Of a stretch of DNA of 64,000 nt, positions 3,786 to 44,245 are shown one piece after another; positions within the stretch are counted from its first letter, which is position 1, and each line of letters opens with the position of its first letter. Under the pieces are notes generated by a model. The model worked only from the letters and a program-made list of their open reading frames with translations, had not been told where the DNA came from and did not search any database. This stretch comes from Botryosphaeria dothidea (Eukaryota; Ascomycota; Dothideomycetes; Botryosphaeriales; Botryosphaeriaceae), in NCBI GenBank assembly GCA_011503125.2, contig WWBZ02000022.1, forward strand, positions 4,030,001-4,094,000, written 5' to 3'. The translations under genes were made by a program, and so were the position numbers.

Positions 3786-4348
3786 ATCTTTGAACTCCCT
3801 GCGCAGGGAGATGGTCGGGTTTGGCTGAGTCAACGAGAAAGAGAATGACGTCGACGCTTCAGTTCAAAGGAGAAAGAAAGGGAGTCGGTAAAGAATCGGA
3901 GGGAATGGAGCTTTTAAATATGTAATGTTGCTTGATTGTATTGATACCCTGGGAGTTTGCTGGAATCGATGGAAAAGGAGCAATATGACGGCGTACTGTC
4001 GAATTTCTTAATCCTTTGCTTCAGATCGCCAGGCATTGGTGGAACTTCGTAGCTAAAGCTCTGAGATTATTCAAACATTAGCTTTTGGCATCAATCGTCT
4101 TCCAACGTGATTGTTGAACTTCTTAACGCCAATCGCATTGCCTGAAGTATCAAATATAAGGGCTGAACTTTCTTTTCTAGAGATCTGCCAGCGACCTCTA
4201 CCGGGGAAATACAGATATCTTACCCATCATACAATCTATACATGTCGATCCCAAAAAAAAAAAAACTCTCTCCCTTTTCTTTCACTTCTTCCATTTCCGT
4301 CACAAAAGCCTTCTCCCATCACGAACCTCCGAGACCGCACCCGAACGA
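3786..4348. other. Convergent 3' flanks, no gene
   Basis: Lies between the stop codons of TFIIIA (plus) and the paraoxonase-like gene (minus). AT-rich stretches around 3915-3950 and 4240-4265 suit 3' processing signals; an A-run occurs at about 4253-4265. No coding signal seen. Confidence 0.5.
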
Positions 4349-5986: not shown

Positions 5987-6656
5987 GTCTGATTTTTTGT
6001 TCCTTCTTCAGCTTCCGCGGGCCAATGGCGGGTATGCTGATAGGTGAGGGAGAAAGGGAAGGGGAGAGGACACGCAGGAGACTATGTAATAGCGGGGCAG
6101 TCCGCTGCGCTTAAGTACGTTAGATGGAGACAGGGTGCTTTGATGGTGGGGATCTGCACATGGGATGCAGGCTCCGGGGCTCCCGAGCAGCTGCGGTAAG
6201 TAAGTTGCGTTTGCAGCCAAAACCAAAAGGCTCCGAGACGCGGGGAAAGCTGGGTTCTTGTCACGGCAAGGGTCCAAAGCCTAATGCTTACTGCTCATGC
6301 AACCGCCGGCAATTGCGGCAGCTGCTGATGCTCATCGATCACATCTAAAATCACAATCCCCTCACCAAGTCAACCGTCTTTCGATGTGCAGAGCTTCGTC
6401 TCGTTTGACATTTTTCCGCGCCATAGGTATGCGGCGCTGCTTCTAGAACGCAGCCCTCGCTTCCCCGAGCTATGAACTACTGAACCCTGAAACTCGCCTG
6501 ACCTCTCCACCGCCCTTCATCAACCCCCCCCAGCCCCACAGCCCCACCGCCCTATTAGCACTCAGCAATTTGCCCTTATTTCTCCATCAATTGCTCCAAT
6601 CTTTTTGGTACTGTGAGCCCTAATTTTCTACGCGAAACGCCCCGTATCCCATAATT
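5987..6656. other. Intergenic, promoter of the paraoxonase-like gene
   Basis: Separates the paraoxonase-like start from the CWC22 stop; both genes read leftward. It includes a C-run near 6521-6535 and no supported coding sequence. Confidence 0.5.
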
Positions 6657-9368
6657 TTACAAGTAATCACTCGCCCGAGCCCGGCCCTTTCCTGCATCTT
6701 CTTTCCTTGCCGGACTGTAGCTCCTGCTCCTGCTTCTCGAAACGCTGACCGATGGACTCCTCCGTCTGACACTCTTTCCCTTATCTTTTGGAGGCGGCGA
6801 AGCCTCTGGAGAGCTTGTGTTCCGTCTGCGTGAGTACTTATCATTTCTTCCTCCACCCGAGCTCTTGTCGTCACGGCTCACCGGAGACCTACGCCGAGGC
6901 GGCGGTGACCGGCTGACGCTCCGCGACGGCGACGGGCTGTACCGGCGTGCCTTGCCACGAGGCGTAGGGCTACGCGAACGCGACGAGTAGCTGGCGCTCC
7001 GGTTTCTGCGTCGCGGCGGGCTGCGCGATCGTGAACCAGATGGGCTGCGACCCCTTCGGACTGCTCGCGGAGGCGGCGTAGGTGAACGCGAGGCTGAGTA
7101 TCTAGCACGGCCGTTCTTTTTCGGAGGCGGCGAGCGAGACACTGACGAGGCTGCCCGGTTGCGGCGGGGAGATGGTGATCTCGAAACCGAAGCGCTGTAA
7201 GAGCGGTCCCTACGACGGCGAGCCGGAGTGCGCGACCTGCTGCGTGAGACCGACTCCGAGTAACTCCTGTCACGCCGGCGACGCGGCGGAGGAGTGTATG
7301 AGTATGAACGCGATCTGCTTCTTCCACGTGGGCTCCGTGACCGCGATTCCGAGTAGCTGTCTCTACGTCTCCGCGATCTCGATGGAGACCTCGACCGCGA
7401 GCTGTAGCTCGAGTAGCTGGAGTATGAAGAGACACTCTCCGAATCGCTCTCCGGTTCTGGCAGAGCTGGAGGTGGAGCTGGCTTCGGCATATTCTTGAGA
7501 TACTCGCGCATGTCTTCCGTGAGCACACCCATACCGATAGCCGTGAAGAAGTTGATAGCGAATCTGGTGTTGCGGCTCTCGTCCTTCGGGAAGATGCCAT
7601 CGAGACTTGGTTGCAGAAGGTCCTCTCTCATACGTTCTGCGAGCTTCTTCATGCTCATGGCCTGGGCCAAGTCCTCAAATAGGATCTTGATGAAGATACG
7701 ACTGGACGAAGTGGTGTCGTTCTCATTCAAACGAACGGCTGAGAAGACGTGCCAACCAATCGCATCGCTGGAGAGTAGGTGGCCGAAGAACTGCGCAATG
7801 ATACGCAGGCGGTTCGTCTCATAGCGATGGATTGTGTTGTAGTACTTCATGAATGACTCCTCGAACAGGTCCCTCCAAAGCCTGTTCAACTTCGCGAACC
7901 GCTCACCAATAAGACCGTAGAACTTGTCGTATGTGCGCTCCTGGGATGCGCACTCAATAATCATCGACGGGAGCTCACTCTCATAGCCAGCCGGAAGGTT
8001 AATTTTCATCAACTTGTGACAACATTCTTCGAAGCCGCCGCTGGACTTGATCGTGAGATATATGGTACGGCGTAGGTTGACAAGATCTGTGTTGGTTTGG
8101 TCCTTGATCTCGAGCTCGCGATCCTGCTTGTCGTCTTCGTCTTCGGAACTCTCGTCGCTTTCGTACTCTTCGTCATCGTCGCTTCCCTCAGCCTCGCCCA
8201 AGATCTCCGCCTTGAGCTGCTTATACGCATCTTCATGCTCTTGCCATTCGGGGTCTGCATTTTTGTTAGCCAGCATTCTAGCAGAATTGATACCAGAACA
8301 CCTACCGAACTTGAAGATGTTGAGTCCATCTTGAACCTCCACCTCATCATCAAGACCAACCTTGTGTGTGATCTGATCCTCTTCTTCCACCAAGTCGAGC
8401 TCTTCCCGAACGGCCGGGTTGTCCTTGTACTTGTCCTTCCTGACCTGGAAGAGTACCTCGACCATGTACTGCGTACGCTTGTCGATATCAGCCTCGTGCA
8501 GAATGTTCCTGAACTGATCGAAAACAGCCAGGGCAATCGGTTGCGACATTTCCTCCAAATGCTGGCCGACTTCCCTTGTCAACCCCACCGCAATCTCAAC
8601 ACTGTCATCTGTCGGCTTGTGAAGCAGAAGAAGCAAGATTTGAGCAGCAAGCATTTCGTGAACAACCTGCTGGTTGACCAGATGGGCAAGGAAGGTCGTT
8701 GACGACAAGCAAACAGCCTTATCATTACGCTTGAACGCCTTGCGGAACTGTACGACCAGTCTGGTAACCAACAGCTCGCCGACCTGGGGAAGCTTCGTGT
8801 TGACAATGGCCACCATAGCCGCATAGACGGGCGTGAAAGGCAACGAAGCGGCCTGGGCCTTCATGATGCTCCGGCAAAACAGACCGCGTCCACGGACCAG
8901 GTTCTCGTTGAACAGCTCGGGCACGATGTACTTGATGTTGGACACGTTGACCTTGTTGATCAGACCGTTGATCGATTTCTTCAGAGCCTCCCATGCCATG
9001 CGCTGGTATTCCTTGCTGCTCTTATCCGTGATCTGGGCTTGTAGCGCGCGCAGCCTGGCGGGCGGAATGTAGGTGCCTCCGGAGCGCATGTTGAGCAGTT
9101 TCTCGTACTCAGCCTTGGCAGCAGCCTGCTTCTGCTCCTCCGTCGCAGGCTTGGGTGGTGAAGGCACCCGGGCGCGAAACTCCAGATCGCGCTGGCGGTC
9201 GCGGTCGCGTGCGCGGTCGTCATCGCGTCGGTCGGGCGAGATGGTACGCGATCTGCCACGCGGTGGAGAGCGGTACCGCCTGGGAGAGGGCGAACGGGAG
9301 GGAGGTGAGCGCTTCCTCGGACGCTCGGGCTCCGGTGAGGGAATTCGGACGGCGGACTCAATCTCCAT
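6657..9368 (-). CDS. CWC22: Pre-mRNA-splicing factor CWC22 (MIF4G + MA3 + RS tail)
   Basis: Model complement(join(6657..8254,8306..9368)), 886 residues. CWC22 is a spliceosome component needed for the first catalytic step and, in animals, it escorts eIF4AIII onto exon junctions. An Arg/Ser/Pro-rich N-terminus leads into the MIF4G domain (about 105-330; GGTYIPPARL, AWEALKKSINGLINKVN, LVRGRGLFCRSIMKAQ), an acidic linker (EGSDDDEEYESDESSEDEDD) and an MA3 domain (about 415-560; LRRTIYLTIKSSGGFEECCH). The last 250 residues are SR/RS-repeat with many SRSRSP motifs. Intron 8255-8305 is 51 bases with GTAGGT donor, GGCTAAC branch and CAG acceptor; it has no stop and keeps frame, so a naive translation includes it. 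Removing it restores the conserved FKFDPEW. ATG at 9368 is preferred; an upstream in-frame codon at 9446 would add 26 unlikely residues. Confidence 0.93.
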   Translation of the reverse strand: MEIESAVRIPSPEPERPRKRSPPSRSPSPRRYRSPPRGRSRTISPDRRDDDRARDRDRQRDLEFRARVPSPPKPATEEQKQAAAKAEYEKLLNMRSGGTYIPPARLRALQAQITDKSSKEYQRMAWEALKKSINGLINKVNVSNIKYIVPELFNENLVRGRGLFCRSIMKAQAASLPFTPVYAAMVAIVNTKLPQVGELLVTRLVVQFRKAFKRNDKAVCLSSTTFLAHLVNQQVVHEMLAAQILLLLLHKPTDDSVEIAVGLTREVGQHLEEMSQPIALAVFDQFRNILHEADIDKRTQYMVEVLFQVRKDKYKDNPAVREELDLVEEEDQITHKVGLDDEVEVQDGLNIFKFGRCSGINSARMLANKNADPEWQEHEDAYKQLKAEILGEAEGSDDDEEYESDESSEDEDDKQDRELEIKDQTNTDLVNLRRTIYLTIKSSGGFEECCHKLMKINLPAGYESELPSMIIECASQERTYDKFYGLIGERFAKLNRLWRDLFEESFMKYYNTIHRYETNRLRIIAQFFGHLLSSDAIGWHVFSAVRLNENDTTSSSRIFIKILFEDLAQAMSMKKLAERMREDLLQPSLDGIFPKDESRNTRFAINFFTAIGMGVLTEDMREYLKNMPKPAPPPALPEPESDSESVSSYSSYSSYSSRSRSPSRSRRRRDSYSESRSRSPRGRSRSRSYSYTPPPRRRRDRSYSESVSRSRSRTPARRRRDRSYSASVSRSPSPRRNRAASSVSRSPPPKKNGRARYSASRSPTPPPRAVRRGRSPSGSRSRSPPRRRNRSASYSSRSRSPTPRGKARRYSPSPSRSVSRSPPPRRRSPVSRDDKSSGGGRNDKYSRRRNTSSPEASPPPKDKGKSVRRRSPSVSVSRSRSRSYSPARKEDAGKGRARASDYL

Positions 9369-10031
9369 GATGGTGTTGGTGTGTGTGGAGTGACGGCAGA
9401 CTTCGGCGGGCTCTTTGCGGGGAGAGGGAGGTGGAGCAACAACCACGGATGCACAGCTGAGGGACTTTCAGCAGACGCGCAGCGGGCGGCGGCCGAGTCC
9501 GCTGGAGGTTGAGCTGGCAGCGGCGAGGTAGGCGACAGTTGGGCCAGATGGCGAGGGAAGCTGCGTAATGTTTGGCAGCGCGCAGGCTGGCGCAAGCAAA
9601 AGTCGCAGGAGAGCGGCAGGCCGGCAAAATGATTAATCCCCCGCCACTCCACCCAAGCTTCAGCCACACTTGGTCTGTGCATTGCTCATCGACCGCCTTG
9701 CTACTGCAGGACCACTTTCTCGCGACTAGAATAATTCGTGTGGAGAATGTTAATCCCTTCCCATTCACAGACATGGAACAAGTAGAAAGAACATCAAGTT
9801 CTGACGGAAAGACTGGACCACCTGTGCAATTTGTGCTCCGTTCATGTCAGCCATATTTGTCTTTATATGCTACCTCAATCTCTCCAGTTCTCAGTAATTA
9901 TGAGCGTAGACATGAGTGTTCAAGAAGAAATTTCATAATGCAGAGAAATAAGGCAAAGGGGGAGAATATGTCATTTTTCTTCGTTCTCAAGTCCAGACTT
10001 CGTTTCGCTGTTTTTCCCCAACTCCGTCCTC
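9369..10031. other. Intergenic, CWC22 promoter side
   Basis: Lies between the start of CWC22 and the stop of the WD40 gene. Short open frames are unsupported. Nothing else recognised. Confidence 0.5.
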
Positions 10032-29181: not shown

Positions 29182-32100
29182 ATGATTCTCCGCGGCCTCG
29201 CTGCCGGCCTGCTCGTGCCCTTTGCGGCCGGCGGCATCCTCCAGCATCGCCAAGCGGAAGCCCCTTACCGCGTCCTTGAGATCGATGTGAACGTCGAAGT
29301 CGTCATTCAACCCGTTGCGATTGCGACATTTTGCGCCCAGAACACCATCTTTGCCTACGCCCCTAGCAACCTCTATACCGTTACCAACGCCCCCACGTTT
29401 GTCAATACCGTGGTCAATGCAACGAGAACGTCGAGGGTCACCACCTACAGGACATATGGCACCGAAAGACCAAGTGGTTTGGGACCAACCAGTACGGGAC
29501 TTCCCCCTGGCCTGTCGTCAACCGTTACCTTGAGAACTATAGTCCTCCCAAGTACAAACTTCCCATTTCCGCCGACGTCTTCACCCTCGGTCTCTTCGCT
29601 CTCCGCTAGCTTGTCCGCAAGTAGTCTGGTGAGCTCTACTTTGTCATCTTCAACTTCGTCGGAACCGTCCGACTGCTGTGGACATGAACCAGACTCAGAC
29701 TCATATGTGGGTAGTTTGTCGGGAACGTCCAGCTTTCCACCGGAATCCGTCTCCTCAAGCACACAGACACTGCAGTCGTCGGCCTCATCATATCCGGCAA
29801 CGTCATCCCTCTCTTCCTCGGGACAAGGATCTATCAGCCTGCCATCATCGAGCTCATCATCCAGTACATATTCGACTTCATTGAGTTCAGGACAAAGCTT
29901 TTCTGGCGCACCAAGCTCTTCCAGTGGCCTGCTTGAGTCTTTGAGCAGTTACATCTTCGGAACCAGCAGTGTCACTTCTTTATCTTCACGCTCAAGTCCA
30001 TCTTCGAGCTCTGTGTTCCCTTCTTCTTCGAGCCTCCAAAGTAGCTATCTGTCTAGCACGAGAGGCCCGAGCGAACCCCCCACTTCTGCGATCTCCTCCA
30101 TCCTTTCTTCATCGAGCAGTTCGGAAGTTTCTTCCAGCAGCTATGGATTGAGCACGAGTGGCTCAGTCGAGCCTTTGAGCTCTGAGGGTACCTCTTCTCT
30201 TGTATCATCGAGCAACCCTGGGCCCGTTTCTTCCAGTAGCTATGGATTCAGCGCCGGTAGCTCCAGTGAGCCTCCAAGCTCGTCAAGCTCTTCTGAAGTT
30301 GGACCTGCGAGCAGCTCGGGGTTTGGTCCTTCCTTGAGCAGCAGTTCCGAGTACCTCTCCTCTTCTGTTTCTTCTTACTCTGTGTCCGCATCGTCTGTGA
30401 GCGGATCGCTGAGCTTTCCGAGTAGCAGTACGGAATCTCTGCTTTCTTCGTCCCTCTTTTCGGGATCTTCCACGGTGTCGCCGGCAAGCAGCAGCCTGCT
30501 CTCGAGTAGCACTCCTGAGCCGTTCTCGAGTAGCGCCGGATCTACCAGTGTGCTTTCAAGCTTTTCGTCGCTGTTGAGCGCCAGTCTTGAGTCGAGCTCG
30601 CTTGGCGGTTCTCCCTCCAGTAGCTTGCCCTCTAGCGTTTCACCGCTCTCAAGTACCGTTTCGGGGTCTAGTTCATTCAGCAGCTATCCCCTGACTACTT
30701 CGCTGCCATTCAGCATCATCTCTGAGTTGGCTTCGTTGAGTAGTTACGCCCCCAGCACCTCGTCGCTTTCCAGCGTGGTTTCGGAATCTATCTCACTCAG
30801 CAGCAACCTGCCCAGCATTGAGTCGTTGAGCTCGTCGTTGCTCTTTCCCAGCAGCGTGGGGACTTCCAGCAGCAATTCGCCGGTCTCCATTGTGGTTTCG
30901 GAGTCTATCTCGCTCAGCAGCTACCTACCTAGCAGCGCATCCTCAGGCTCATCGTTGCTCTTTCCCAGCAGCCTAGGGCTTTCCAGCAGCCTAGGGCTTT
31001 CCAGCAGCCTATGGCTTTCCAGCAGTAATTCGCCGGTTTCTATCGAAATTTCGGAATCTATCTCTCTTAGTAGCTACCTACCCAGTAGTGCATCTTTGAG
31101 CTCCTCGTTACTCTTGCCCAGTAGCTTAGGGCTTTCCAGCAGTTTAGGAGTTTCCAGCAGCTTAGGGATTTTCAGCAGCAATTCGCCGGTTTCTAGTGTG
31201 ATTTCGGAGTCTATCTTACTTAGCAGCAACCTACCTAGCAGTGCATCCTTAGGCTCTTCGTTGCTCTTGCCCAGCAGCTCCGGGGTTTCCAGTAGCAATT
31301 CTGCCTCGGCAAGCGTCTCCTCTCTGTCGCTGATCTCGAGCCCTCTCTCAGAGTTGGTTTCTTCCAACCTATTCGGGCCAAGCAGCTCAATCTCTGGTTC
31401 TCCTTCGCTCCCAACTAGTGCCTCAGGACCATACTCGTCCAGCAGCTTCATAGCAAGTAACGAGCTCTCTAGTGCATTGTCGCTGCCGAACGTCCCTTCA
31501 GAGTCATACGCACCTAGCAGCAATCAGCCAAGCATCCCGAATCTTGAGAGTTCCTCGTTGATTCCTGCTTCATCATCGGTATCGTCACCAAGCTTGTCGC
31601 TTCCCGTCTCTATCTCTGTATCCGCCTCGGCCAGTGCATCTTTCAGCACACTAGGATCTTTGTCTTCGTCTTTGTCATCAGAATCAGCGCTGTCAAGCTC
31701 AGGGGTTCTTTCATCGCTTGCTTCCAACTTAGGCAGCATCAGCCCGAGCTTTACGGTATCAAGCGAGTCCCTGAGCGCCAGTAGCCTCCCCACTGGTTTC
31801 TCCACAGTGACATTGGCTTCGGTGTCATCCACTTCGGGGATCTTTTCAACCCTCTCGTCGATCATCTTCGGCTCCAGCTCCAGCCCCACCAGGTCCATTC
31901 AGCCCTCAAGCGTCAGCAGCCTTTTGACTGGGGTTTCCACCGTGACCGTTGCATCGCAATCCACTTCAATTCTCCCCGTCTCCTCGCCTTTTTCATCGAC
32001 AAATGGTCTCCTGAGCTCTTTGTCGGCCATTTCTGGAAGCCTGACAGTGTCTGAGTCATTTTCGTCTCTGATATTGCCTCCAGTATCTTCTAGTACAGCA

Positions 32101-35100
32101 TCGATTGGTGCTTCATCCCTCCTCTCAAGCTCGCTGCCAAGTCTATCCCAGAGTGTTTCTACGGACTTGTCACTCCCATTCTCCAGCCCGATCTCGAGCT
32201 CGTCTGGATCTGTGATCACCGGTGTCCCGTCTCCATTCTCGGATCTGTTGTCTAATTCGCTTGGTACACCATCGAGTAGCGGTCCGTCACTGATCTCAAG
32301 CCCGCTATTGAGCGTATCTGGATCTACAGCCACTGGGGTTTCATCTTCATTCTCTAATCTGTTGTCGAGTTCAGCTGGTACGCCACTGAGCAGTGGTCAA
32401 TCACCGGTCTCAAGCCTGCTATTCAGCTCTTCTGGATCTATACTCACTGGGGTCCCGTCTCCATTCTCGGATCTGTTGCCGAACTCGCTTGGTACAGCAT
32501 CGAGCAGCGATTCGTTGCCGGTCTCAAGCCTAATAGCAAGTTTGTCCGCAATGACATCCGCCAGCGTCTCATTGCCAGGATCAAGCCTCAGCCTTAGCAT
32601 TTCATCGACAGTCTTGCCCACTGTGTCCTCTTTGCTACAATCTCTCAGTGTAGCACCAACCGACTCCGCAGCTATCAGTTCACTTGCATCGATTCTGAGC
32701 TCCATTTACCCTTCCGTCAGTCCTACTTCAGTTTCAGTAATAATCCCGACCGAGGTACCAACCAATCTGGTGTCTCTTTCGTCGGTTTATTCAAGCTACG
32801 GGTATTCGCTTCCCATATCAGTGAGCCTATCACTGCCATCGATCACCGTTCCATCAATTACGCTTTCATCGATAACCAGCCCTTCGATTTCTCTGTCGTC
32901 ACTTACTGGACTGCCTTCTTCCCTGCCTCTGGAATCTCTCGGGCCGCAGGTGTCCTCACTCCTGTCTCAAGTAGGGGGTTTGACGACCGCACTACCGCTT
33001 CCGGTAGTATCATCGCTTCTCTCGCAGGTCGTCAGTGACTTGACAAGATTACCTCTTCCAACTATTTCGCTGCCCATCGATCTGTCTCTGTCGATCTCGC
33101 TTGGTCTTCCTTCGCCAACACTACCGCTTCCGCTGCCTACCCTCCCTCTCACTGCACTTCCGAGTCTTCCCGTGATGGTTCCGACTTCACTTCCTCTGGA
33201 TTCGCTGGTCTCACAGCTTTTAGGCGCTACCAGTATTCTGAACGGACTGACCAGTGTCTCGTTGCCGCTGACACTTCCCACAAGCGAGCCACTGGATTCG
33301 GTCATCTCAGGCCTGCTGGGGGCAACGAGTCTCCTGGGAGGTCTTCCCTCGAACGTTCCTGTCGACTCCCTGGTCTCCGATCTTCTTGGTATCACCACTC
33401 GCCTACCCAGTGTTTCATTGCCGTTGACACTCCCCACCACTGTGCCTCTCGATTCCGTCATCTCTAATCTTCTCGGCGTGACGAGCCTTCTGGGAGGGTT
33501 GCCAACAAATGTTCCGCTGGATTCTGCCATCTCTGATCTCCTGGGGATCACAACTAGGTTGCCAAGCGTGTCGCTTCCACTCACTCTTCCTACGAGCTTG
33601 CCGGTGGATTCCCTGATTTCAGAACTTCTTGGGGCGACGAGTCTCTTGGGAGTTCTACCAACGAGCGTTCCCGTAAACTCATTGATCTCACAGCTGCTGG
33701 GCGCAACAAGTCTTCTGGGGGTGTTGCCAACAAGTGTACCGCTGGATTCTGCAATCTCTGATGTTCTAGGTATTACGACCAGGTTACCAAGTGTGTCACT
33801 TCCACTCACACTCCCAACCAACGTCCCGTTGGACTCGGTACTTTCAGATTTGCTGGGAATAACAACCCGCCTACCGAGCGTGTCACTATCGCTCTCTCTC
33901 CCCACTGGTCTACCAAGCGTATCACTTCCGCTCACTCTCCCAACTGGCCTGCCTAGTGTGTCACTTCCGCTCACGCTTCCTACTGGCCTCCCAAGCTTAT
34001 CTCTACCGCTTACAATTCCGACCGATGTCCCCTTAGACTCGGCGCTTTCGGGTTTGCTCAGCGTGTCACTTTCGCTCTCTCTCCCAACAAGCCTGCCAAG
34101 CTTGTCACTTCCACTCACGCTTCCAACTAATGTCCCGCTGGATTCTGTAATTTCAGACCTGTTGGGCATTGCAACTCGCCTACCAAGCGTGTCGCTTCCG
34201 CTTACTCTGCCCAGCGTGTCACTTCCGCTCACCGTGCCCAGCGCGTCACTGCCGCTCACCTTGCCCAGCGTATCACTTCCTCTCACTCTCCCCACGGGCC
34301 TGCCAACGAACGTCGCACTAGATTCCCTTCTTTCAGGCATTTTGAGTCTCCCAACTGGGCTTTCCGGCGTGTCTCTTTCACTGCCTCTGTCGCTCTCGCT
34401 GAGTTTGCCCACGGGTCTACCGAGCAGCGTTCCGATCGATTCGCTCTTGTCTGGCATTCTGGGGCTCCCTACGCAACTGTCTCTTCCCATAACACTGCCG
34501 ACCGCGCTTCCCACGAATGTTGCTCTGGACTCTCTTGTTTCCGATCTACTTGGAGTCACGTCATTGCTAAACGGGCTTTCTCTTTCTCTCCCTCTCACGC
34601 TGCCAACTTCTCTACCTCTCACACTACCGACCTCTCTACCTCTCACACTGCCGACTTCTCTACCTCTCACACTACCGACTTCTCTTCCTCTCACATTGCC
34701 GACTGGCTTGCCTACGAATCTCCCGGTTAATTCCCTTCTATCCCAGCTTTTGGGCATCACATCGGCATTGTCAGGTGTTTCTCTGCCAATTACCCTCCCG
34801 ACGACCTTGCCCAGCAATGTTCCTCTTGATTCTCTTGTCTCGGATCTTTTGGGGGCCACGTCACTGCTACAAAGCCTTTCTCTGTCTCTGACATTGCCTA
34901 CTGGCTTGCCTAGCGTGAGCTTCCCGAGCGTCAGCCTCCCGCTTACACTTCCAACGAGCGTCGCTGTCGACTCGCTTCTTTCGCAACTTCTGGGTATTAC
35001 CACAGCTCTGCCCAGCGTATCCCTTCCACTCACGTTGCCCACAAACGTGCCCGTCGATTCTCTCGTCTCGCAGCTTTTGGGAATCACCACAGCCCTGCCG

Positions 35101-38100
35101 TCTCTTCCACTACCAACCGGGCTCCCTGTTCAGTCGGTTCTATCAGATCTTCTGGGTATCACGACTCGCCTGCCAGCGCTGTCAGCCAGTCTCCCGGTAG
35201 ACTCGGTCTTGTCAGATCTTCTGGGCATTAGCACCCGCTTGTCGGGTGTCTCGCTCCCACTGACACTGCCTACTGGTCTACCTAGCCTGTCCGTCGGGCT
35301 TCCGCTGTCATTGCCAACGACTAGTTTGCCAAGCTTGTCTTTAAGCCTTCCCAGCCTTTCCGTTGGCCTACCTCTGTCTCTGCCAACCGTAAGTTTGCCA
35401 TCTGGATTACCCAGCAGCATTCCACTCGATTCGGTAATCTCGGGTCTGTTGAGCGATGTTACGAGTCTCCTTGCCAGTCTTCCGAGCGGGCTTCCAACGA
35501 GTGTCCCACTCGATTCGGCTATTTCTCAGCTCCTGGGAGCCACAAGCCTCTTGGGAGCTCTGCCGACCGGACTAACAAGCAACGTTCCTCTTGATTCTGC
35601 GCTCTCTAGTCTTCTTGGTGCAACGAGTCTCTTAAGCGGTCTTCCAAGCGGTCTACCGAGCAATGTACCAGTGGATTCTCTGCTTTCCAATCTGCTTGGA
35701 GCATCCTCTCTCTTGGGAAGTCTCTCACTCAATCTTCCACTCCCAACAAACTTGTTGTCGAGCCTGCCGCTTCCTACTGTCTCCGCTCCTCTTCCAAGTT
35801 TGTCCCTTCCGAGTGTTGGACTTTCTCTTTCTGGTCTTGCTGGAGTTTCGTTATCTTTGCCGACGCCCTCGCTCCCATCGCTGAGCGTAACTCTCCCAAC
35901 TGCCAGTATTCCCTCTCTGCCACTGAGCGTGGGTCCTCTTCCCACAGACGCAGCCGGATTGTCAAGCGCCGTGGGTGGGGTTGAAAGCGCCGTGTCAAAC
36001 TTGCTCAGCGGTCTCCCCGGCGTTCCGAGCAGCGTTCTTGGCGACGTGAGCAATATTCTCCAGAGCGTATTGCCCACAAATCCTATTAGTGCGATCTCGG
36101 CCCTTCAGAGCCTTCTGCCCACCGCCAGCCTTCCGCTCGTCAGCGATCTTTCCGTGCTCCAGAGCATCTTGCCCACAGCTCCGGCGCTGTCTTCTCTCCT
36201 GGGTGGCCTGCCTTCTCTCCCAAGCGCCCTGGCTAGCAATCCTGCTGCAGTTTCGTCGCTTCTTTCAAGGATTGGTGACGTTGTCAGTGAGCTGCCGTTG
36301 AGCCTACCTGCCAGCATTCCCAGCATCGGCCCTATCACAGGTGTTCCATCTCTTTCGATCAGCCTGCCGAGCGGACTGCCCTCAGATCTTGGTGTTCTTT
36401 CGTCTGCATCGGCCAGCTTGCCCCTGCCTTCAAACCCGGCTGATCTGAACTCTCTGCTCAGTTCGGTCTTGCCCAGCCTGGGTCTTCCTGTCCCAACTGG
36501 CTTGCCTGTACCCTCAAACCCCATCGAACTGAGCTCTTTACTGAGCTCCTTGTTGCCCAGTCTTGGTTTGCCTACCCCAACCAGCTTGGCCTTGCCATCT
36601 AATCCAGTTGAACTGAGCTCTTTGCTTGGTTCTCTTTTGCCCAGCCTCGGTGTATCTCTTCCAACGAACCCATCGGATGTATCAGGTGCGCTTTCGTCAC
36701 TTTTGGCAAACCCCAGTCTCAGCGATGTTCTTTCCAACCTACCTCTGCCTACCAGCGCGTTGCCCAGCTTGGCTTTGCCCTCTAATCCCGTTGAGTTGAG
36801 TTCTTTGCTCGATTCCGTCCTTCCCAGCTTGAGCTTGCCAGTTCCGACGAACCCTGCTGATGTATCCGGAGCACTGTCATCCCTTCTGGCAAACCCCAGC
36901 CTCGGAAGTGTCTTCTCAAACTTGCCGACTGGGGTCCTACCAAGTGATCTGCAGTCCTTGCTCCAGCCATCGCTTTCCCTTACTGGTCTTCCATCTGTTG
37001 CGGCGTCCCTTCCACTGAGTCTCAGCCTTGGTTTGCCAACACCATCACTGCCCATCGGTGTCTCAAGCGCTTTGCCGATTCCGTCCAACCCTGCAGACCT
37101 TGCTTCGCTGGTGTCCGAGATTCCGGCTTTATCCTCCATCCTCCCATCAGTGCCGATCGAGTCCCTGTTCACCGACGCTCCGGCCCTCAGTTCGGTCCTC
37201 TCTCAGATTGAGCAGTTGAGCTTGCCACTGCCCACTGCTTTGGGTACCGGTGTACCCTCACTTGACCTCTCTTCTCTTAGCCTGGCTCCGCCGAGCGAAG
37301 TCCTTCCATCCGTGGGGCTTCCCCTGCCAACTGAAAGCCTGTCCCTCGACCTTTCTTCTCTCGGCCTGCCTTCTGAAGGTCTTCCATCTTTGGGGTTGCC
37401 TTCGGGCCTCCCCTCCGAGCTTCCTTCATTAGGTCTCTCTTCGATCGAATTGCCTCTGCCGTCTGCTGGCCTTCCATCACTCGACCTCTCATCCCTCGGT
37501 CTCCTCTCTGAAGCGCCATCTCTGGGTCTATCTTCGGGGGCGCTTCCTTCCCTGGGGCTGCCATCCAATCTCGCACCGTCTGCAGGCCTTCCCTCTGAAG
37601 CCTTGCCGTCACTGGATTTGGGTCTCTCGCTGAGCCTCAGCCCTTCCTTGGGCTTGCCGTCTGTTGGTTTGCCCTCGGCTGCCGTACCATCTCTGGGGCT
37701 CCCTTCAACTGGTCCCCCAAGTCTCCAGTCCACGCCCGACTTGGGTCTTCCCACTGATATTGCCTCGCTCGAATCTGCAGTGCCTTCTCTCCTCTCTAGC
37801 CTGCCCTCAGGTGTCAGCGATCTGGCGTCTCTCCTGCCAGGACTTTCCACCGACGCGCCTTTGGCTTCGGCAGTAAGTCAGCTGCAGAATGCCCCGTCTG
37901 CTATCGCGAGTGATCTGGGATCCGTCTTTCCTGGACTGTCGACCGATGTTCCCTTGGCGTCCGCCGTTAGTCAACTGCTCAACTTACCGTCCGCATCGGA
38001 TAGTGATATTGCATCTCTTCTGCCTGTGCTCTCGACCAACGCTCCTCTGGCGTCTGCGGTGAGCCAGCTGCAGAATGCCCCGTCATCTTTGGTGGCCGAT

Positions 38101-41100
38101 CTGGCGTCGAACCTCCCTCTGGCATCACAGCTTTCCCAGGTCTTGCAAAGCCTCGCACCGAGCGGGTTGCCGAGCTTGGGGCTTCCGACTGCCTTATCCG
38201 GCGTTGGTCTTCCCAGCTCTGCCGTTCCCTCACTCGAATTGTCCAGCCTTGGGCTTCCTGGCCTACCCGGCCTTACTGCCCTTAACCCCGGAGCATCTTC
38301 TGGCGCGGTTCCCAATCTCCCCTTGTCATCGGACTTGGACAACAGTGGAATCAGCCAGATCGCAAGCCTCCCAAGCGCGGGCCCCGAGCTCTCCGAGCTA
38401 CTCTCTGGGCCTCTGCCGACCATCCTTTCAAGCGCTCTCCCTTCTGTGTCCGCTCCTGCTTTGCCCACGGCCGTCCGAAGCGACTTGAGTGCAATTACTG
38501 CTGCTCCCGCCGCGTCTGCCGTCTCTGAGCTTCTCAGTGCTCTGCCCAGCGCGCTTTCCAGTGGTCCTTTGGATTCTGCTTTGTCAGACCTCGTCAGCGA
38601 TTTAGCTTCCAACCCGGCGGACCTTTCCAGCGCGCTTCAGTCCCTGGTCTCTGCAATTGCACCTTCGAACCTGCCTCTCGCATCCGCACTAACGAACTTG
38701 CTGAGCGCTCCGATTGCTTTGTCAACCCCGTCCGCCGGTGGGCTTCCATCCTTGGGCATTTCTATTCCGCTGTCTATCAGTCTCAGCATCCCGACCCTTG
38801 GAGGCATTCTTGCGCCCTCCTCAGCTCCCGTTGCTTCGCTTCCAACACCTGTTCTGCAAAGCCCCAGCGTTGCACTCCCTAGTGACCTCTCTGCGCCCAC
38901 AGATATTGACTCCACATTGCCGAGCGATGTCCTCTCAGCACTGCCGTCGAACGCATTGCCATCGGAGGTGCTGCCATCCAATGCTCTTCCGTCGAACCCG
39001 GCGGTTTCGTCCGTCTTGAATGACGTCTCTCAGATTATTGGTCAGCTTCCGACTGCTGGAGTGCCCACGGATAACCCGCTGGCTATCGGTTCTGTTGTCG
39101 GCGACCTTCAATCTCTCTCTTCCCTGGCCAACCCTACCGCCGGATTGGACTCACTCCTTCCGTCAGAGCTTCAATCACAGCTTGGCCCCATCAACAGCTT
39201 GCTCTCGCAGATTGCTCCGGTGCCCACTACTCTCCTGACAGTGACCGGCATTCCCTCTGCCATCAGCTCAGCTCTACAAGAGTTGCTTTCAAGTAGCCCC
39301 GTGGCTGTTCCGTCTGATCTCAACGAGTTGCCGTCAGCTGCAGCCTCGCTTCCTGCCAGCATTGATCTCAGCACCCTGAACCCGGTGGCCAGTTTGCTGA
39401 ACCCTGTTCTCAGCCCTTCAGTTGGCATTCCACTGCTGTCTGCTCTCATCCCGGGCCAATCAGCACCTGCCTCCCTGCCTGCCGGCATATCGAGCCCAGC
39501 ACCAAGCCTGTCAAACGCCGAGAGCGCTCTCCCAGGTGTCAGCGGCATCGACACCGACCTGTCTCCGCTTACCGAGCTCTCAAACCTACCGTCGGTCCTG
39601 CCGTCCATCACCACCCCGCTGGACCCACTGGCAACGCTCCTCTCGCAAGTCGGCGACCTCCTCACCAATCCCAACGCCGTGCCATCCTTGCTCTCGCAAG
39701 TCGTCTCTGGCGTCGGCGATGCTCTTACGGACCCCAATGCCGTTCCCTCCGTGCTTTCAGGCGTCGGATCCAATCTTGCCGCCTTGCCGTCCGTCGTCGT
39801 CAATCCCGTCCTTTCGAACGTCGGTGATGCGCTCACAAACCCTGCCGTTCTTCCTTCAGCCTTGTCTCAGATTGGCAATGACTTGGGGGGTTTGTCGTCC
39901 GCGCTTCCGGGCTTGGGAAGTCTGCTGCAACCTCCGGCAGCTCTTCCATCTGCTGGTCTCCCTTTCGCAGGTCTCCCTTCCGCAGGTCTCCCTTCTGCTG
40001 CTCTTCCGTCTGAAGTGACTTCTCTCCCTGTCAATCCCGTCAGCTCAGCCCTCTCGGACTTGGGCGATGCTCTAACCAACCCGGTCGCTTTGCCCTCTGC
40101 CCTGTCAGAACTTCAATCCGACATCAATGCACTGCCATCCAACCCAGTCCAATCGAACATCAACTCGGCCCTTTCGGATCTTGGAAACGCCCTTACCAAT
40201 CCTGCGGCACTGCCTTCGGCACTGTCTCAGGTTGGTAATCAGCTCAGCGGCCTTCTGACAAACCCGCTAGGTGGTCTTTTCAGTTCACCAGCAGCGCCGA
40301 CGCCGTCATTTGCAGCCTCTTCCCCTGGCGTGCCGGCGGCATCTTCACTGCCAGCTGGCATCTCGACAGCCCTTCCCGCATCCCCGTCTCTTCCCGTATC
40401 AGCCGGTCTTCCCACCGAAGGCCTCCTATCAGAGACCCCCAGTGCTGCGCTCCCATCGGACCTGGACCTGAGTGCCTCTATTCCTGCATCGTCGGAAGCC
40501 TCGCTGCCCAGTCTCGGCTCAAGTGCAGCCGCCCTCAGCAGCCTTGCTGGTGGCCTCCTGCCTTCCTCCGCCGCCTCAGTTGCTGGAGGACTGACATCCG
40601 CTTCTGCAATCCCGCTCACCGACCTCCTCGACGCCCTTTTCTCATCATCGGCTCCTGCCGGAGCCTCCTCAAGCCCGGCCGTCGGTGGCGTCTCTTCCCC
40701 CACCGCGCTCCCACTGACGAGCGCTGCAGGCGGTGTCCTGTCATCCTCCTCCGTCGCCGCTTCCAATCCCCTCGGAAGTCTCGTGGGCGGTCTCCTCCCC
40801 GGTTTGCTCGGTAGTGGAGTGCCTGCGGCATCGTCTGCGCCCGCTGTTGTTTCTTCACCCGCCATCTCTCCGAGCACGGCTGCGGCCAGCAACCCAGCCA
40901 GCGTCTCTGTGAACGTCGGTTTGTCCGTCGGCGTTGGGCCCGAGGGTTCAGGTCCGGCAGCTTCTTCGCCAGCAGCTCAGGCTTCTGTACCCGGAGTCTC
41001 GTCGGTCGCAGCGGCGCCCAGCGTGCCGGCTGTGTCGAGTGTAGCACCAGCTCTGTCTAGCGCAGCCCCAGCTGTGTCCAGTGCAGCCCCGGGTTTATCC

Positions 41101-42501
41101 AGTGCAGCCCCAGCTTTATCCAGTGCAGCACCGGCGCTGTCCAGTGTAGCTCCAGCACTGTCCAGCCCAGCACCAGCTTTATCCAGCGCCGTCAACAGCA
41201 ACCCTCTGGCTGGCATTGGTGGCCTCTTTAGCGCTCTGGCACCACAACAAGCAGCGTCAAGTACCCCTGGGTCCGCATCAACTCTCCCATCTGCGGTGCC
41301 TTCAAGCAGCGTCAACGCTCCTGCAGCATTCAGCAGCAACCCCGCGGCAGCGCTTCCGAGCAGTAGCCCGGTGGCTGCTGTCCCAAGCTCTAGCCCGGCT
41401 GCTGCGCTCCCAAGTAGTAACTCGGTGGCAGCTATCCCAAGCTCTAGCCCTGCGGCTGCTATCCCAAGCAGCAACCCTGCGCCAGCTCTTCCAAGCAGCA
41501 ACCCCGCTGCAGTCCTCCCAAACAGCAACCCAGCAGCCGCTGTCCCAAGTAGTAACCCTGCTGCAATTCTCCCAAGCAGCAACCCAGCTGCTGTCCTCCA
41601 GAGCAGCAGCCCTGCGGTCGCGCTTCCGAGCAGCAGTCCCGCGGCAGCCCTTCCAGGCAGTAACCCTGATTCAGCCCTCCAAAGCAGCAGCCCAGCAGCT
41701 GCTCTAAGCCATTCAAGCAGTCCTTCGGCGTCAGCATCAGGCTCGGCATCCGTATACGTCGCGCCCGTTGCATCTGCGGTCCAGAGCTCCCCAGCCGCCG
41801 TGTCAAGCAATCCCGTGGCGAGCAACCCCATCGGCAATCTCCTGAGTCCCGTCTTGAGCTCCGGCGGTGGTGCGGCTCAAACGAGTGCTGCTGCTGCTCC
41901 GAGTAGCGCAACCGCGGCAGTGCCCAGCAGCAGTGCCCCCGCAGTTCTCGCAAGCAGCAACGCGCCGGCGGCCGCGCCCAGCAGCTCTCCTGCGGTCCAG
42001 CCGCCGAGCAGCGCCCCTGCAGCTCCCCCCTCCAGCGCCGCCCCAACGAGCGTCCGCAGCAGCAGCTCCGAGGCGCCCTACCTCGTCTCCGCCTCCGCCG
42101 GCGCCTCCGCCGGCCCCGCTCAGCAGCAGTCCTCTGCCGCCGCCACCGCAGCATCGGTCTCGGGATCCGCGGTCGTCGGAGCAGGTCAATCGTCGGCGCC
42201 CAACGCCCAGAGCAGCAGCGCGGCCGCCGTACTTTCGTCGTCTCTGCGAAGCAGCGGCAGCAGCGTCGCGGCCGTTCCCACGAGCAGCTCGGTCGCGCCG
42301 GCAGTCTCTCCAAGCAGCAGCTCCGTCACTCCGGCTCTGTCTCCCACCAGCAGCTCGGTCGCTCCGTCTACGCTGTTGACTACGACAAGGCCGGCATCGT
42401 CGTCCAGCACCGCAGCCGCCACTAGTGTGAGACTGAGCTCTACGGTGACGACTTCGTCTCGGGCGGCCACTGGTAGTGGTCTTCTGGGGCTTCCGATTTG
42501 A
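29182..42501 (+). CDS. Giant secreted Ser/Leu/Pro repeat protein (4,439 residues)
   Basis: One uninterrupted frame of 13.3 kb. The N-terminus (MILRGLAAGLLVPFAAGG) is a putative signal peptide. A short unique domain follows with one Cys (FCAQNTIFAYAP) and Asn-X-Thr sites, then a Cys pair (SDCCGHEPD); I found no other cysteines. About residues 100-1200 are Ser-rich, mucin-like. From nucleotide 32.9 to 36 kb, units of about 29-33 residues repeat the theme LPLTLPTNVPLDSVISDLLG then ITTRLPSVS. At 36.4-36.9 kb the unit is PSNPVELSSLLSSLLPSLGL; at 37.2-37.7 kb LPSLGLPSGLPSEL; at 37.8-38.1 kb GLSTDAPLASAVSQLQNAPS; at 39.6-40.3 kb VGDALTNPAVLPSALSQ. The last 600 residues are Ala/Ser/Pro (SSNPAAALPSSSPAA). 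The tail GSGLLGLPI is too short for a normal GPI signal. No known enzyme or adhesin domain. A cell-wall, surface-coat or adhesive role is inference. Confidence 0.85.
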   Translation: MILRGLAAGLLVPFAAGGILQHRQAEAPYRVLEIDVNVEVVIQPVAIATFCAQNTIFAYAPSNLYTVTNAPTFVNTVVNATRTSRVTTYRTYGTERPSGLGPTSTGLPPGLSSTVTLRTIVLPSTNFPFPPTSSPSVSSLSASLSASSLVSSTLSSSTSSEPSDCCGHEPDSDSYVGSLSGTSSFPPESVSSSTQTLQSSASSYPATSSLSSSGQGSISLPSSSSSSSTYSTSLSSGQSFSGAPSSSSGLLESLSSYIFGTSSVTSLSSRSSPSSSSVFPSSSSLQSSYLSSTRGPSEPPTSAISSILSSSSSSEVSSSSYGLSTSGSVEPLSSEGTSSLVSSSNPGPVSSSSYGFSAGSSSEPPSSSSSSEVGPASSSGFGPSLSSSSEYLSSSVSSYSVSASSVSGSLSFPSSSTESLLSSSLFSGSSTVSPASSSLLSSSTPEPFSSSAGSTSVLSSFSSLLSASLESSSLGGSPSSSLPSSVSPLSSTVSGSSSFSSYPLTTSLPFSIISELASLSSYAPSTSSLSSVVSESISLSSNLPSIESLSSSLLFPSSVGTSSSNSPVSIVVSESISLSSYLPSSASSGSSLLFPSSLGLSSSLGLSSSLWLSSSNSPVSIEISESISLSSYLPSSASLSSSLLLPSSLGLSSSLGVSSSLGIFSSNSPVSSVISESILLSSNLPSSASLGSSLLLPSSSGVSSSNSASASVSSLSLISSPLSELVSSNLFGPSSSISGSPSLPTSASGPYSSSSFIASNELSSALSLPNVPSESYAPSSNQPSIPNLESSSLIPASSSVSSPSLSLPVSISVSASASASFSTLGSLSSSLSSESALSSSGVLSSLASNLGSISPSFTVSSESLSASSLPTGFSTVTLASVSSTSGIFSTLSSIIFGSSSSPTRSIQPSSVSSLLTGVSTVTVASQSTSILPVSSPFSSTNGLLSSLSAISGSLTVSESFSSLILPPVSSSTASIGASSLLSSSLPSLSQSVSTDLSLPFSSPISSSSGSVITGVPSPFSDLLSNSLGTPSSSGPSLISSPLLSVSGSTATGVSSSFSNLLSSSAGTPLSSGQSPVSSLLFSSSGSILTGVPSPFSDLLPNSLGTASSSDSLPVSSLIASLSAMTSASVSLPGSSLSLSISSTVLPTVSSLLQSLSVAPTDSAAISSLASILSSIYPSVSPTSVSVIIPTEVPTNLVSLSSVYSSYGYSLPISVSLSLPSITVPSITLSSITSPSISLSSLTGLPSSLPLESLGPQVSSLLSQVGGLTTALPLPVVSSLLSQVVSDLTRLPLPTISLPIDLSLSISLGLPSPTLPLPLPTLPLTALPSLPVMVPTSLPLDSLVSQLLGATSILNGLTSVSLPLTLPTSEPLDSVISGLLGATSLLGGLPSNVPVDSLVSDLLGITTRLPSVSLPLTLPTTVPLDSVISNLLGVTSLLGGLPTNVPLDSAISDLLGITTRLPSVSLPLTLPTSLPVDSLISELLGATSLLGVLPTSVPVNSLISQLLGATSLLGVLPTSVPLDSAISDVLGITTRLPSVSLPLTLPTNVPLDSVLSDLLGITTRLPSVSLSLSLPTGLPSVSLPLTLPTGLPSVSLPLTLPTGLPSLSLPLTIPTDVPLDSALSGLLSVSLSLSLPTSLPSLSLPLTLPTNVPLDSVISDLLGIATRLPSVSLPLTLPSVSLPLTVPSASLPLTLPSVSLPLTLPTGLPTNVALDSLLSGILSLPTGLSGVSLSLPLSLSLSLPTGLPSSVPIDSLLSGILGLPTQLSLPITLPTALPTNVALDSLVSDLLGVTSLLNGLSLSLPLTLPTSLPLTLPTSLPLTLPTSLPLTLPTSLPLTLPTGLPTNLPVNSLLSQLLGITSALSGVSLPITLPTTLPSNVPLDSLVSDLLGATSLLQSLSLSLTLPTGLPSVSFPSVSLPLTLPTSVAVDSLLSQLLGITTALPSVSLPLTLPTNVPVDSLVSQLLGITTALPSLPLPTGLPVQSVLSDLLGITTRLPALSASLPVDSVLSDLLGISTRLSGVSLPLTLPTGLPSLSVGLPLSLPTTSLPSLSLSLPSLSVGLPLSLPTVSLPSGLPSSIPLDSVISGLLSDVTSLLASLPSGLPTSVPLDSAISQLLGATSLLGALPTGLTSNVPLDSALSSLLGATSLLSGLPSGLPSNVPVDSLLSNLLGASSLLGSLSLNLPLPTNLLSSLPLPTVSAPLPSLSLPSVGLSLSGLAGVSLSLPTPSLPSLSVTLPTASIPSLPLSVGPLPTDAAGLSSAVGGVESAVSNLLSGLPGVPSSVLGDVSNILQSVLPTNPISAISALQSLLPTASLPLVSDLSVLQSILPTAPALSSLLGGLPSLPSALASNPAAVSSLLSRIGDVVSELPLSLPASIPSIGPITGVPSLSISLPSGLPSDLGVLSSASASLPLPSNPADLNSLLSSVLPSLGLPVPTGLPVPSNPIELSSLLSSLLPSLGLPTPTSLALPSNPVELSSLLGSLLPSLGVSLPTNPSDVSGALSSLLANPSLSDVLSNLPLPTSALPSLALPSNPVELSSLLDSVLPSLSLPVPTNPADVSGALSSLLANPSLGSVFSNLPTGVLPSDLQSLLQPSLSLTGLPSVAASLPLSLSLGLPTPSLPIGVSSALPIPSNPADLASLVSEIPALSSILPSVPIESLFTDAPALSSVLSQIEQLSLPLPTALGTGVPSLDLSSLSLAPPSEVLPSVGLPLPTESLSLDLSSLGLPSEGLPSLGLPSGLPSELPSLGLSSIELPLPSAGLPSLDLSSLGLLSEAPSLGLSSGALPSLGLPSNLAPSAGLPSEALPSLDLGLSLSLSPSLGLPSVGLPSAAVPSLGLPSTGPPSLQSTPDLGLPTDIASLESAVPSLLSSLPSGVSDLASLLPGLSTDAPLASAVSQLQNAPSAIASDLGSVFPGLSTDVPLASAVSQLLNLPSASDSDIASLLPVLSTNAPLASAVSQLQNAPSSLVADLASNLPLASQLSQVLQSLAPSGLPSLGLPTALSGVGLPSSAVPSLELSSLGLPGLPGLTALNPGASSGAVPNLPLSSDLDNSGISQIASLPSAGPELSELLSGPLPTILSSALPSVSAPALPTAVRSDLSAITAAPAASAVSELLSALPSALSSGPLDSALSDLVSDLASNPADLSSALQSLVSAIAPSNLPLASALTNLLSAPIALSTPSAGGLPSLGISIPLSISLSIPTLGGILAPSSAPVASLPTPVLQSPSVALPSDLSAPTDIDSTLPSDVLSALPSNALPSEVLPSNALPSNPAVSSVLNDVSQIIGQLPTAGVPTDNPLAIGSVVGDLQSLSSLANPTAGLDSLLPSELQSQLGPINSLLSQIAPVPTTLLTVTGIPSAISSALQELLSSSPVAVPSDLNELPSAAASLPASIDLSTLNPVASLLNPVLSPSVGIPLLSALIPGQSAPASLPAGISSPAPSLSNAESALPGVSGIDTDLSPLTELSNLPSVLPSITTPLDPLATLLSQVGDLLTNPNAVPSLLSQVVSGVGDALTDPNAVPSVLSGVGSNLAALPSVVVNPVLSNVGDALTNPAVLPSALSQIGNDLGGLSSALPGLGSLLQPPAALPSAGLPFAGLPSAGLPSAALPSEVTSLPVNPVSSALSDLGDALTNPVALPSALSELQSDINALPSNPVQSNINSALSDLGNALTNPAALPSALSQVGNQLSGLLTNPLGGLFSSPAAPTPSFAASSPGVPAASSLPAGISTALPASPSLPVSAGLPTEGLLSETPSAALPSDLDLSASIPASSEASLPSLGSSAAALSSLAGGLLPSSAASVAGGLTSASAIPLTDLLDALFSSSAPAGASSSPAVGGVSSPTALPLTSAAGGVLSSSSVAASNPLGSLVGGLLPGLLGSGVPAASSAPAVVSSPAISPSTAAASNPASVSVNVGLSVGVGPEGSGPAASSPAAQASVPGVSSVAAAPSVPAVSSVAPALSSAAPAVSSAAPGLSSAAPALSSAAPALSSVAPALSSPAPALSSAVNSNPLAGIGGLFSALAPQQAASSTPGSASTLPSAVPSSSVNAPAAFSSNPAAALPSSSPVAAVPSSSPAAALPSSNSVAAIPSSSPAAAIPSSNPAPALPSSNPAAVLPNSNPAAAVPSSNPAAILPSSNPAAVLQSSSPAVALPSSSPAAALPGSNPDSALQSSSPAAALSHSSSPSASASGSASVYVAPVASAVQSSPAAVSSNPVASNPIGNLLSPVLSSGGGAAQTSAAAAPSSATAAVPSSSAPAVLASSNAPAAAPSSSPAVQPPSSAPAAPPSSAAPTSVRSSSSEAPYLVSASAGASAGPAQQQSSAAATAASVSGSAVVGAGQSSAPNAQSSSAAAVLSSSLRSSGSSVAAVPTSSSVAPAVSPSSSSVTPALSPTSSSVAPSTLLTTTRPASSSSTAAATSVRLSSTVTTSSRAATGSGLLGLPI
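30972..31025 (+). repeat. Three 18-base tandem units in the giant gene
   Basis: The unit CCTAGGGCTTTCCAGCAG occurs three times, the third with one change (G to T, Gly to Trp). It encodes LGLSSS. Near-identity indicates recent local duplication. Confidence 0.9.
34609..34704 (+). repeat. Four 24-base tandem units in the giant gene
   Basis: Units of 24 bases beginning TCTCTACCTCTCACACT encode the octapeptide SLPLTLPT. Copies differ by only one to three bases, and a more diverged copy precedes them. This marks ongoing repeat expansion in the middle of the Leu-rich domain. Confidence 0.9.
41341..41710 (+). repeat. Degenerate 36-base-type tandem array, Ala/Pro/Ser tail
   Basis: About ten units of roughly 10-12 codons with the theme PSSNPAAAL or PSSSPAAA. 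Codons differ between units more than amino acids do, suggesting selection for the peptide. Confidence 0.75.
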
Positions 42502-43642: not shown

Positions 43643-44172
43643 AAGATATTTTTGTCGAAGGCCGTTGCAGCACCCCTTTAACGCTTAGCAACCTTAATTA
43701 ACTATGGCAGAACGGTGATGCAGAGGGTCTTCGCACACGAAGGATGGATGTATTGTGAGCGTTTCGAGGACTCGGAAGTTCTTCAAAGATACTTCGGAGT
43801 TCGCCTACGCATGACCCCACGATCACTTCGCAGCTACAAAGAGGAAGATTCATGTTGCGGCAAGCAACTGACCCGGAAGGCGAGCTCTGAAGGTCCTCTT
43901 GCATTTGTAAAATCGGTAATAGTAACTTGACATACTCTTGGATAAACCCAGTACCCTGAATGCTGCAAATCCCGCTCCCCAGCACTCAGTGCGCCGTTTT
44001 CGTCATCCTAGACCAAGAAAGTCCTCTCCAAACAATTTTCCAATGTTGTTCACAGTCTCATCTTCCCTGTATACCGCGCTCGGGCCACGCCAATCCTTCC
44101 GCCTCGCAAAAAATTTGTTTGTCAGCCGCCCACGCCCCCCAAGCCACGCAAAACAAAAAAATATGGGAATTG

Positions 44173-44245
44173 AGCCCAACGCGGGGGTCGAACCCGCAGC
44201 CTTGAGATTAAGAGTCTCACGCTCTACCGATTGAGCTAGCCGGGC
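44173..44245 (-). tRNA. tRNA-Lys (anticodon CTT)
   Basis: The 73-base minus-strand sequence folds as a cloverleaf: acceptor GCCCGGC with GTTGGGC (two G-U pairs), D-arm GCTC/GAGC, anticodon stem TGAGA/TCTCA with loop CTCTTAA, and T-arm GCGGG TTCGAAC CCCGC. Anticodon CTT (plus positions 44210-44212) reads AAG. There is no intron. The B box GGTTCGAACCC is consensus. CCA is not encoded, as expected in eukaryotes. Confidence 0.97.

Follow-up and report, generated by a model that had tools for sequence, protein, structure and literature searches.

What does a single 13.3-kb reading frame encode in Botryosphaeria dothidea, and what keeps it open? The frame lies in the window analysed here (the whole stretch of DNA under study, 64,000 nucleotides). 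A first-pass annotation had described one frame of 4,439 codons with only three cysteines, all near the N terminus, and both descriptions were borne out: the frame runs from ATG to stop without an internal stop, and Cys occurs at positions 51, 165 and 166 only. Read in its five alternative frames, this DNA contains 125, 116, 246, 41 and 197 stops, and among 200 order-1 Markov sequences matched to it in length (one frame each) the longest open run was 437 codons. The protein is composed mainly of Ser (26.7%), Leu (18.7%), Pro (12.2%) and Ala (9.3%), and Trp occurs in it once, His three times and Lys never—the absence of lysine being a feature overlooked in the first reading of the sequence. Its parts are as follows.

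29182..42501, plus strand: single open reading frame, 4,439 amino acids plus stop (ATG at 29182, stop at 42499–42501, no internal stops)
29182..29253, plus strand: putative signal peptide, residues 1–24 (from hydropathy; pattern kept in the paralogue)
29254..29499, plus strand: conserved head, residues 25–106, homologous by sequence comparison to the head of a giant gene on contig C58 that carries GLEYA exons
29782..32871, plus strand: Ser-rich mucin-like block, residues 201–1230 (Ser+Thr 48%)
32872..35781, plus strand: Leu/Ser/Pro repeat block, residues 1231–2200 (repeat units, period of about 2)
35782..40431, plus strand: Leu/Ser/Ala/Pro block, residues 2201–3750 (helix-like amphipathic period of 3.5–3.6)
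40432..42498, plus strand: Ala/Ser/Pro tail, residues 3751–4439 (7- and 9-residue periods)

An antisense frame of 707 codons (32967–35090, minus strand) lies within the Leu/Ser/Pro block; it is probably a by-product of codon use and carries no evidence of a gene.

One account of such a frame is neutral expansion of low-complexity DNA, left open through its composition and devoid of function. Repeats, low complexity, avoidance of TA and the lack of a known domain are all compatible with that account. We compared, copy against copy, ten tandem arrays inside the ORF that were defined by DNA similarity alone. They come from a set of 18 tandem-repeat rows; of the eight rows set aside, six were sub-arrays or alternative periods of stretches already represented, and two were short arrays (39937 and 42090). 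Among the ten, one pair overlaps, and two arrays that contain indels were compared without gaps. The 534 codons compared showed 91 differences at the first codon position, 71 at the second and 225 at the third, which had the highest count in every one of the ten arrays. The copies differ by 175 synonymous and 130 amino-acid-changing codons, where random single-base changes in the same ORF are synonymous in 28.6% of cases; three of the ten arrays (6:7, 14:28 and 5:5) have no synonymous excess, as neutral expansion would allow. All 16 exact peptide copies of SLPLTLPT have distinct DNA. Five repeat families gave pN/pS values of 0.16–0.36 with pS of 0.50–0.79, although these families were picked by protein motif, which biases pN downward. 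The third-position excess together with the synonymous divergence indicates that the repeats are mostly old and preserved at the protein level. Selection thus acts both on the frame and on its amino-acid repeats, neither of which is junk, and the earlier proposal that so long an open frame implies selection is upheld by the codon-position test and by the sequon purge described below. The high synonymous divergence between repeats, the third-position excess over the ten arrays, a sequon purge confined to this frame and a conserved head all weigh against functionless expansion, which is already disfavoured and which we regard as extremely improbable.

The gene had also been called intronless. 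Two intron patterns found no intron-like signal in the ORF, which makes the description plausible; it falls short of proof, as an open frame can hide an intron. Both patterns detect a 51-nt candidate intron in a neighbouring CWC22 gene (window positions 6657–9446, minus strand), where the candidate is in frame and free of stops, so that the naive ORF reads through it; the extra residues are absent from six of the seven orthologues compared, which indicates that an open frame may conceal an intron. The giant ORF contains no intron-like site where its synonymous shuffles give 6.4 (none of 100 as low), and the paralogue contains 4 where its shuffles give 7.0 (20 of 100). Between 29182 and 42498, TA dinucleotides number 313 against 421.7 expected (z = −9.9) and are avoided at the synonymous level, and this general avoidance largely accounts for the missing intron signals. 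A purge of splice signals as such was mostly dropped as an explanation, as TA avoidance explains the bulk of the deficit without splicing; among branch-point words in the giant ORF, CTAAC is scarce (3 against 14.4, rank 6 of 587) and CTGAC falls within the ordinary range (rank 74 of 587).

Long ORFs occur in the neighbourhood as well (CWC22, 929 codons; a WD40 gene, 915 codons). By Pfam, the neighbours are a C2H2 zinc-finger protein, CWC22, a WD40 protein, AA9, DUF6590, AMP-binding, BolA (25.0 bits, slightly below the cut-off of 25.7), Gpr1/Fun34 and NAPRTase, a set that suggests no gene cluster. The CWC22 protein is 93.3% identical to that of Macrophomina phaseolina and 99.4% identical to another database protein; identity is 79–85% over the full alignment with Diplodia and Lasiodiplodia (C termini diverge; 87–91% locally) and 83–84% with Aplosporella and Phyllosticta. 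Judged by this one gene, the DNA is probably from a member of the Botryosphaeriaceae (Dothideomycetes) close to M. phaseolina but probably distinct from it.

Where in the cell would such a protein act? One pointer is the distribution of Asn. Only 1 of 122 Asn residues lies in an N-glycosylation sequon (Asn-X-Ser/Thr), at residue 79 in the head, where 32.1 sequons were expected; none of 1,000 local permutations and none of 1,000 local Markov sequences (mean 24.2) had a count as low. Counting distinct Asn contexts gives 1 sequon in 110, and none of the 115 Asn beyond residue 200 lies in a sequon. Counts of the equivalent context for other residues of the protein, against expectation, are 20 and 27.1 for Asp, 15 and 18.2 for Glu, and 20 and 19.7 for Gln. 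Nine neighbouring ORFs pooled contain 19 sequons where 20.3 would be expected, and none of the five alternative frames of the giant ORF is purged (9 against 3.5, 9 against 11.1, 15 against 13.5, 21 against 12.3 and 6 against 7.8). The paralogue is purged as well (5 of 114 Asn; 34.9 expected). Pro follows Asn in 39 of the 122 cases. A study of fungal cellulase linkers reports avoidance of N-glycan sites, the 150 Asn of the linkers including 7 in sequons and 100 followed by Pro (PMC3490864), and a yeast study reports that N-glycosylation hinders nearby O-mannosylation (PMC4824858). From the purge we infer a chain that transits the endoplasmic reticulum (ER) and is meant for O-mannose without N-glycans. 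What we find, a Ser/Thr-rich chain in which sequons are avoided, is the mark of an N-glycan-free extracellular chain, with O-mannose itself putative.

Lysine is purged even more completely: none is present, although base composition, taken separately for the three codon positions, predicts 35.8. As Arg (26 against 284.4) and His (3 against 68.2) are also low under the same model, the chain avoids positive charge generally. The longest lysine-free run is 2,296 residues in the paralogue and 84–154 in four neighbouring ORFs. Low contents of Lys and Arg have been reported for fungal low-complexity regions (PMC11878562), a known tendency that the lysine-free chain carries to an extreme. Depletion of Leu and Val in such regions is reported there as well (PMC11878562), the opposite of what this protein shows for Leu; set against that reported depletion, 18.7% Leu over 4,439 residues is an outlier of biophysical interest. 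A tRNA-Lys(CTT) gene (44172–44245, minus strand) lies 1.7 kb from the end of the lysine-free gene, which we regard as coincidence.

Lysine deserts are also known from intracellular proteins of the ubiquitin system (PMC10665810), and the signal peptide is putative, being drawn from hydropathy and from the pattern in the paralogue; an intracellular disordered or scaffold protein that is not secreted would be compatible with both. The sequon purge, however, has no evident cytosolic reason, the nine neighbouring ORFs (one of them a predicted membrane protein) are jointly unpurged, and the head is common to a gene with GLEYA exons. An intracellular protein is therefore very unlikely in our judgement, and an extracellular location, taken alone, is highly probable.

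The body of the protein is a train of amphipathic segments, first strand-like and then helix-like. Residues 1231–2200 (Leu 28.7%) are built of the units [V/L]P[L/V]DSxxSxLLG and SVSLPLTLPT. The first half of this block has a super-repeat of 52 residues, and the block shows strand-like hydrophobic alternation with a period of about 2 (z at 2.0 = 6.4 and 13.1; 60 shuffles) and an additional period of 3.3 (z = 7.5 and 6.9). In residues 2201–3750, z at 3.6 is 7.3, 6.0 and 12.0 in three sub-blocks. The helix-like period is not confined to the Leu-rich blocks, as it recurs in residues 901–1230 (z = 6.3, near 3.7) and 3751–4100 (z = 4.3). Ser+Thr make up 25–48% of each block, with tandem repeats; a long Ser/Thr-rich repeat stalk is thus present. 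Mean hydropathy is +0.54 for the whole protein, and its most hydrophobic 19-residue window (residues 2–20; 1.82) falls inside the putative signal peptide. Four windows reach a hydropathy of at least 1.6, each with Pro, Asn or a charged residue, and two of these are the putative signal peptide; nowhere in the protein did the hydropathy scan find a transmembrane-like window that lacks Pro, Asn and charged residues. By hydropathy, no GPI tail is evident—the last 20 residues average 0.52, a hydrophobic tail is absent, and the C terminus, GSGLLGLPI, is not a clear anchor. Dibasic KR or RR does not occur in the protein, which has a single HR at 22–23.

With neither a transmembrane helix nor an evident GPI tail, the protein might be released, as a soluble component of slime or mucilage or as a surface-active film former, instead of being held in the wall. 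Its amphipathic repeats and the hydropathy of its body blocks (+0.35 to +0.86) would suit this role; the head that it has in common with a wall-type adhesin may instead indicate retention. We consider release unlikely.

Domain searches agree with the first-pass annotation that no lectin, hydrophobin or flocculin domain is present. Pfam returned no family at E ≤ 1 for the whole protein or for residues 1–206, and no match to the Als repeats (PF05792) or GLEYA (PF10528) in the 4,439-residue protein. When the protein was searched as six pieces at E ≤ 10, the head had no match, and three of the five body pieces had matches below curated cut-offs only (for example, Baculo_PEP_C at 18.1 bits, cut-off 38). 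A sequence search of the PDB with the whole protein gave nothing at E ≤ 1, and a head profile gave three matches (E = 0.54–0.88). AlphaFold2, proposed earlier as a check, placed strands at residues 41–80 of the head (pLDDT 73–80) and gave no confident fold overall (mean 50.6 for the head and 36.4 for a repeat segment); these models are not taken as evidence. The hope of finding orthologues of similar architecture was disappointed in length-limited, word-ranked candidate sets from a protein database that includes Botryosphaeriaceae proteins: residues 1–400 gave none at E ≤ 0.001 among the 1,565 candidates sharing most words (about 2,441–7,768 amino acids), a query for which Ser-rich words may crowd out a true orthologue, and residues 1–150 gave none at E ≤ 0.1 among 2,689 candidates (about 516–1,643 amino acids). 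Given the word crowding and the limited length windows, we do not claim that the gene is an orphan. A literature search found no description of such a protein.

The relative that places the gene came from its own genome (51.7 Mb, 78 contigs), which was searched with the head, the Ser block, residues 1271–2306 and the tail (residues 3937–4439). At E ≤ 0.001, the head (residues 1–206) matched one other gene, on contig C58 (E = 1.2 × 10−15), the first exon of which is as follows.

Contig C58, 1933228–1954161, minus strand: paralogue exon, 6,976 codons from ATG (20.9 kb)

At 6,976 codons, this exon exceeds the 4,439-codon gene in length. Identity between the heads is 41–50% by stretch over about 100 residues (z = 15.8–25.9 over three stretches; 2,000 shuffles), the similarity holds without the signal peptide, and a signal-peptide-like start is common to both. 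Judged by these alignments, the head is homologous to that of the giant C58 gene. As read from the DNA, the C58 exon continues beyond an apparent intron into further frames. The exon has a Candida_ALS match (38.1 bits, cut-off 25), and the later frames have GLEYA matches of 55.8 and 26.8 bits (cut-off 26.2), for which the nearest solved relative is Epa1p, a weak match (E about 0.005). The paralogue resembles the 4,439-residue protein in its signal-peptide-like start, head, giant Ser-rich exon, sequon purge and scarcity of lysine (13 of 6,978). It differs in its higher Thr and Gly content, its Als-type repeat match, the GLEYA exons at its C-terminal end and a region that by eye is rich in Cys; the 4,439-residue protein, by contrast, is Leu-rich and has no Als-type match, Cys-rich region or GLEYA exons. 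Apart from matching themselves, the Ser block and residues 1271–2306 had no genome match at E ≤ 0.001, and the tail had six weak matches, spread over four sites on contigs C18, C78, C58 and C12 (E = 1.2 × 10−6 to 2.4 × 10−4), all with stops inside. Contig C71 (11 kb; positions 2193–10000 of the piece read) carries a copy of the C58 locus; over 7.8 kb the two differ by 12 gaps and not by a single mismatch (99.85% identity), and this pattern makes the copy most likely an uncorrected assembly duplicate and not a second gene. A search for promoter elements shared by the two giant genes was discarded, its best E value of 0.61 equalling that of the reversed-sequence control.

The layout of the paralogue—a 20.9-kb exon followed by apparent introns and GLEYA exons, as read from the DNA—raises the question of whether the 13.3-kb frame is likewise only the first exon of an adhesin-type wall protein, with an anchor or binding domain in unrecognized later exons. 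Genome-wide, however, GLEYA matches fall on contigs C58 and C8 only, with none on the contig of the 4,439-codon gene, and the forward frames between its stop and the tRNA gene (1,670 bases) are short and contain no domain-like sequence by eye. We therefore judge hidden exons to be quite unlikely. The match on C8 (62805–63077, 67.4 bits) marks a second GLEYA-domain gene, in a frame of 233 codons (5451–6152 of the piece read).

We favour the view that the gene is functional and that its product is a giant secreted protein of the surface or matrix with heavy O-mannosylation; for the mechanism as a whole, the chances seem to us evenly balanced. The putative signal peptide would direct the chain into the ER, where Ser and Thr residues would receive O-mannose and the exclusion of N-glycosylation would leave the chain uniformly O-glycosylated. 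The Ser block may serve as an extended, brush-like spacer, and the strand-like and helix-like segments could associate sideways, through their Leu faces, with copies of themselves, to give a cohesive, water-repelling coat on hyphae or spores or within their mucilage. The head might dock the chain to the wall, or might have a secretion or assembly partner in common with the adhesin. The absence of a lectin and of an evident GPI signal points to the role of a coat or glue polymer rather than of a receptor. Assembly as amyloid was rated low, given the Pro every four residues in SLPLTLPT. Of the earlier suggestion of a surface coat, adhesin or wall polymer of a type not described, the surface or extracellular role gains support from the sequon purge and from the head in common with a GLEYA-exon gene, and the function is inferred; 'a type not described' is too strong, as giant Ser/Thr-rich adhesins are known and the head ties the gene to one. 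What is unusual is a body rich in Leu and free of lysine, with no evident anchor.

A broader proposal, possible but in our view doubtful, is that the protein stands for a class of giant surface polymers in fungi that have neither lectin nor anchor. In such a polymer, amphipathic strands and helices would alternate along a purged backbone that carries O-glycans only and has no lysine (about 1 μm long if extended); this one chain would form a hydrophobic, cohesive coat and so do a hydrophobin-like job. It would have arisen from a giant adhesin that kept its conserved secretion or docking head and had its body replaced. If this is true, fungi build very long, oily surface chains that carry O-glycans only and need neither lectin nor anchor, and the whole body of a giant adhesin can be swapped while its head stays. 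The joint purge of sequons and lysine would then be a simple mark for such proteins in genomes where domain searches find nothing.

Among known systems, the GLEYA/Flo/Epa adhesins (PF10528; Epa1p) have in common with this protein a long Ser/Thr-rich repeat stalk and a secretory start (putative here), and differ in that the 4,439-residue protein has no PA14/GLEYA domain or evident GPI signal and has a Leu/Pro-rich body. Als adhesins (PF05792) are likewise repeat-rich and at the surface (predicted here); the link to them runs through the paralogue only, as the protein has no Pfam Als match. Mucin-type membrane sensors (Msb2/Wsc type) have a transmembrane helix, which hydropathy does not reveal here. 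Hydrophobins are recognized by a pattern of eight Cys, against three in this protein, and repellents (Rep1 type) by repeats separated by dibasic Kex2 sites at which they are cleaved, whereas the protein has no KR or RR Kex2 sites; with both groups it may share a water-repelling coat function. A parallel for the sequon avoidance and the preference for Asn-Pro comes from fungal cellulase linkers (PMC3490864); there the avoidance concerns a linker between enzyme domains, and here it spans 4,439 residues.
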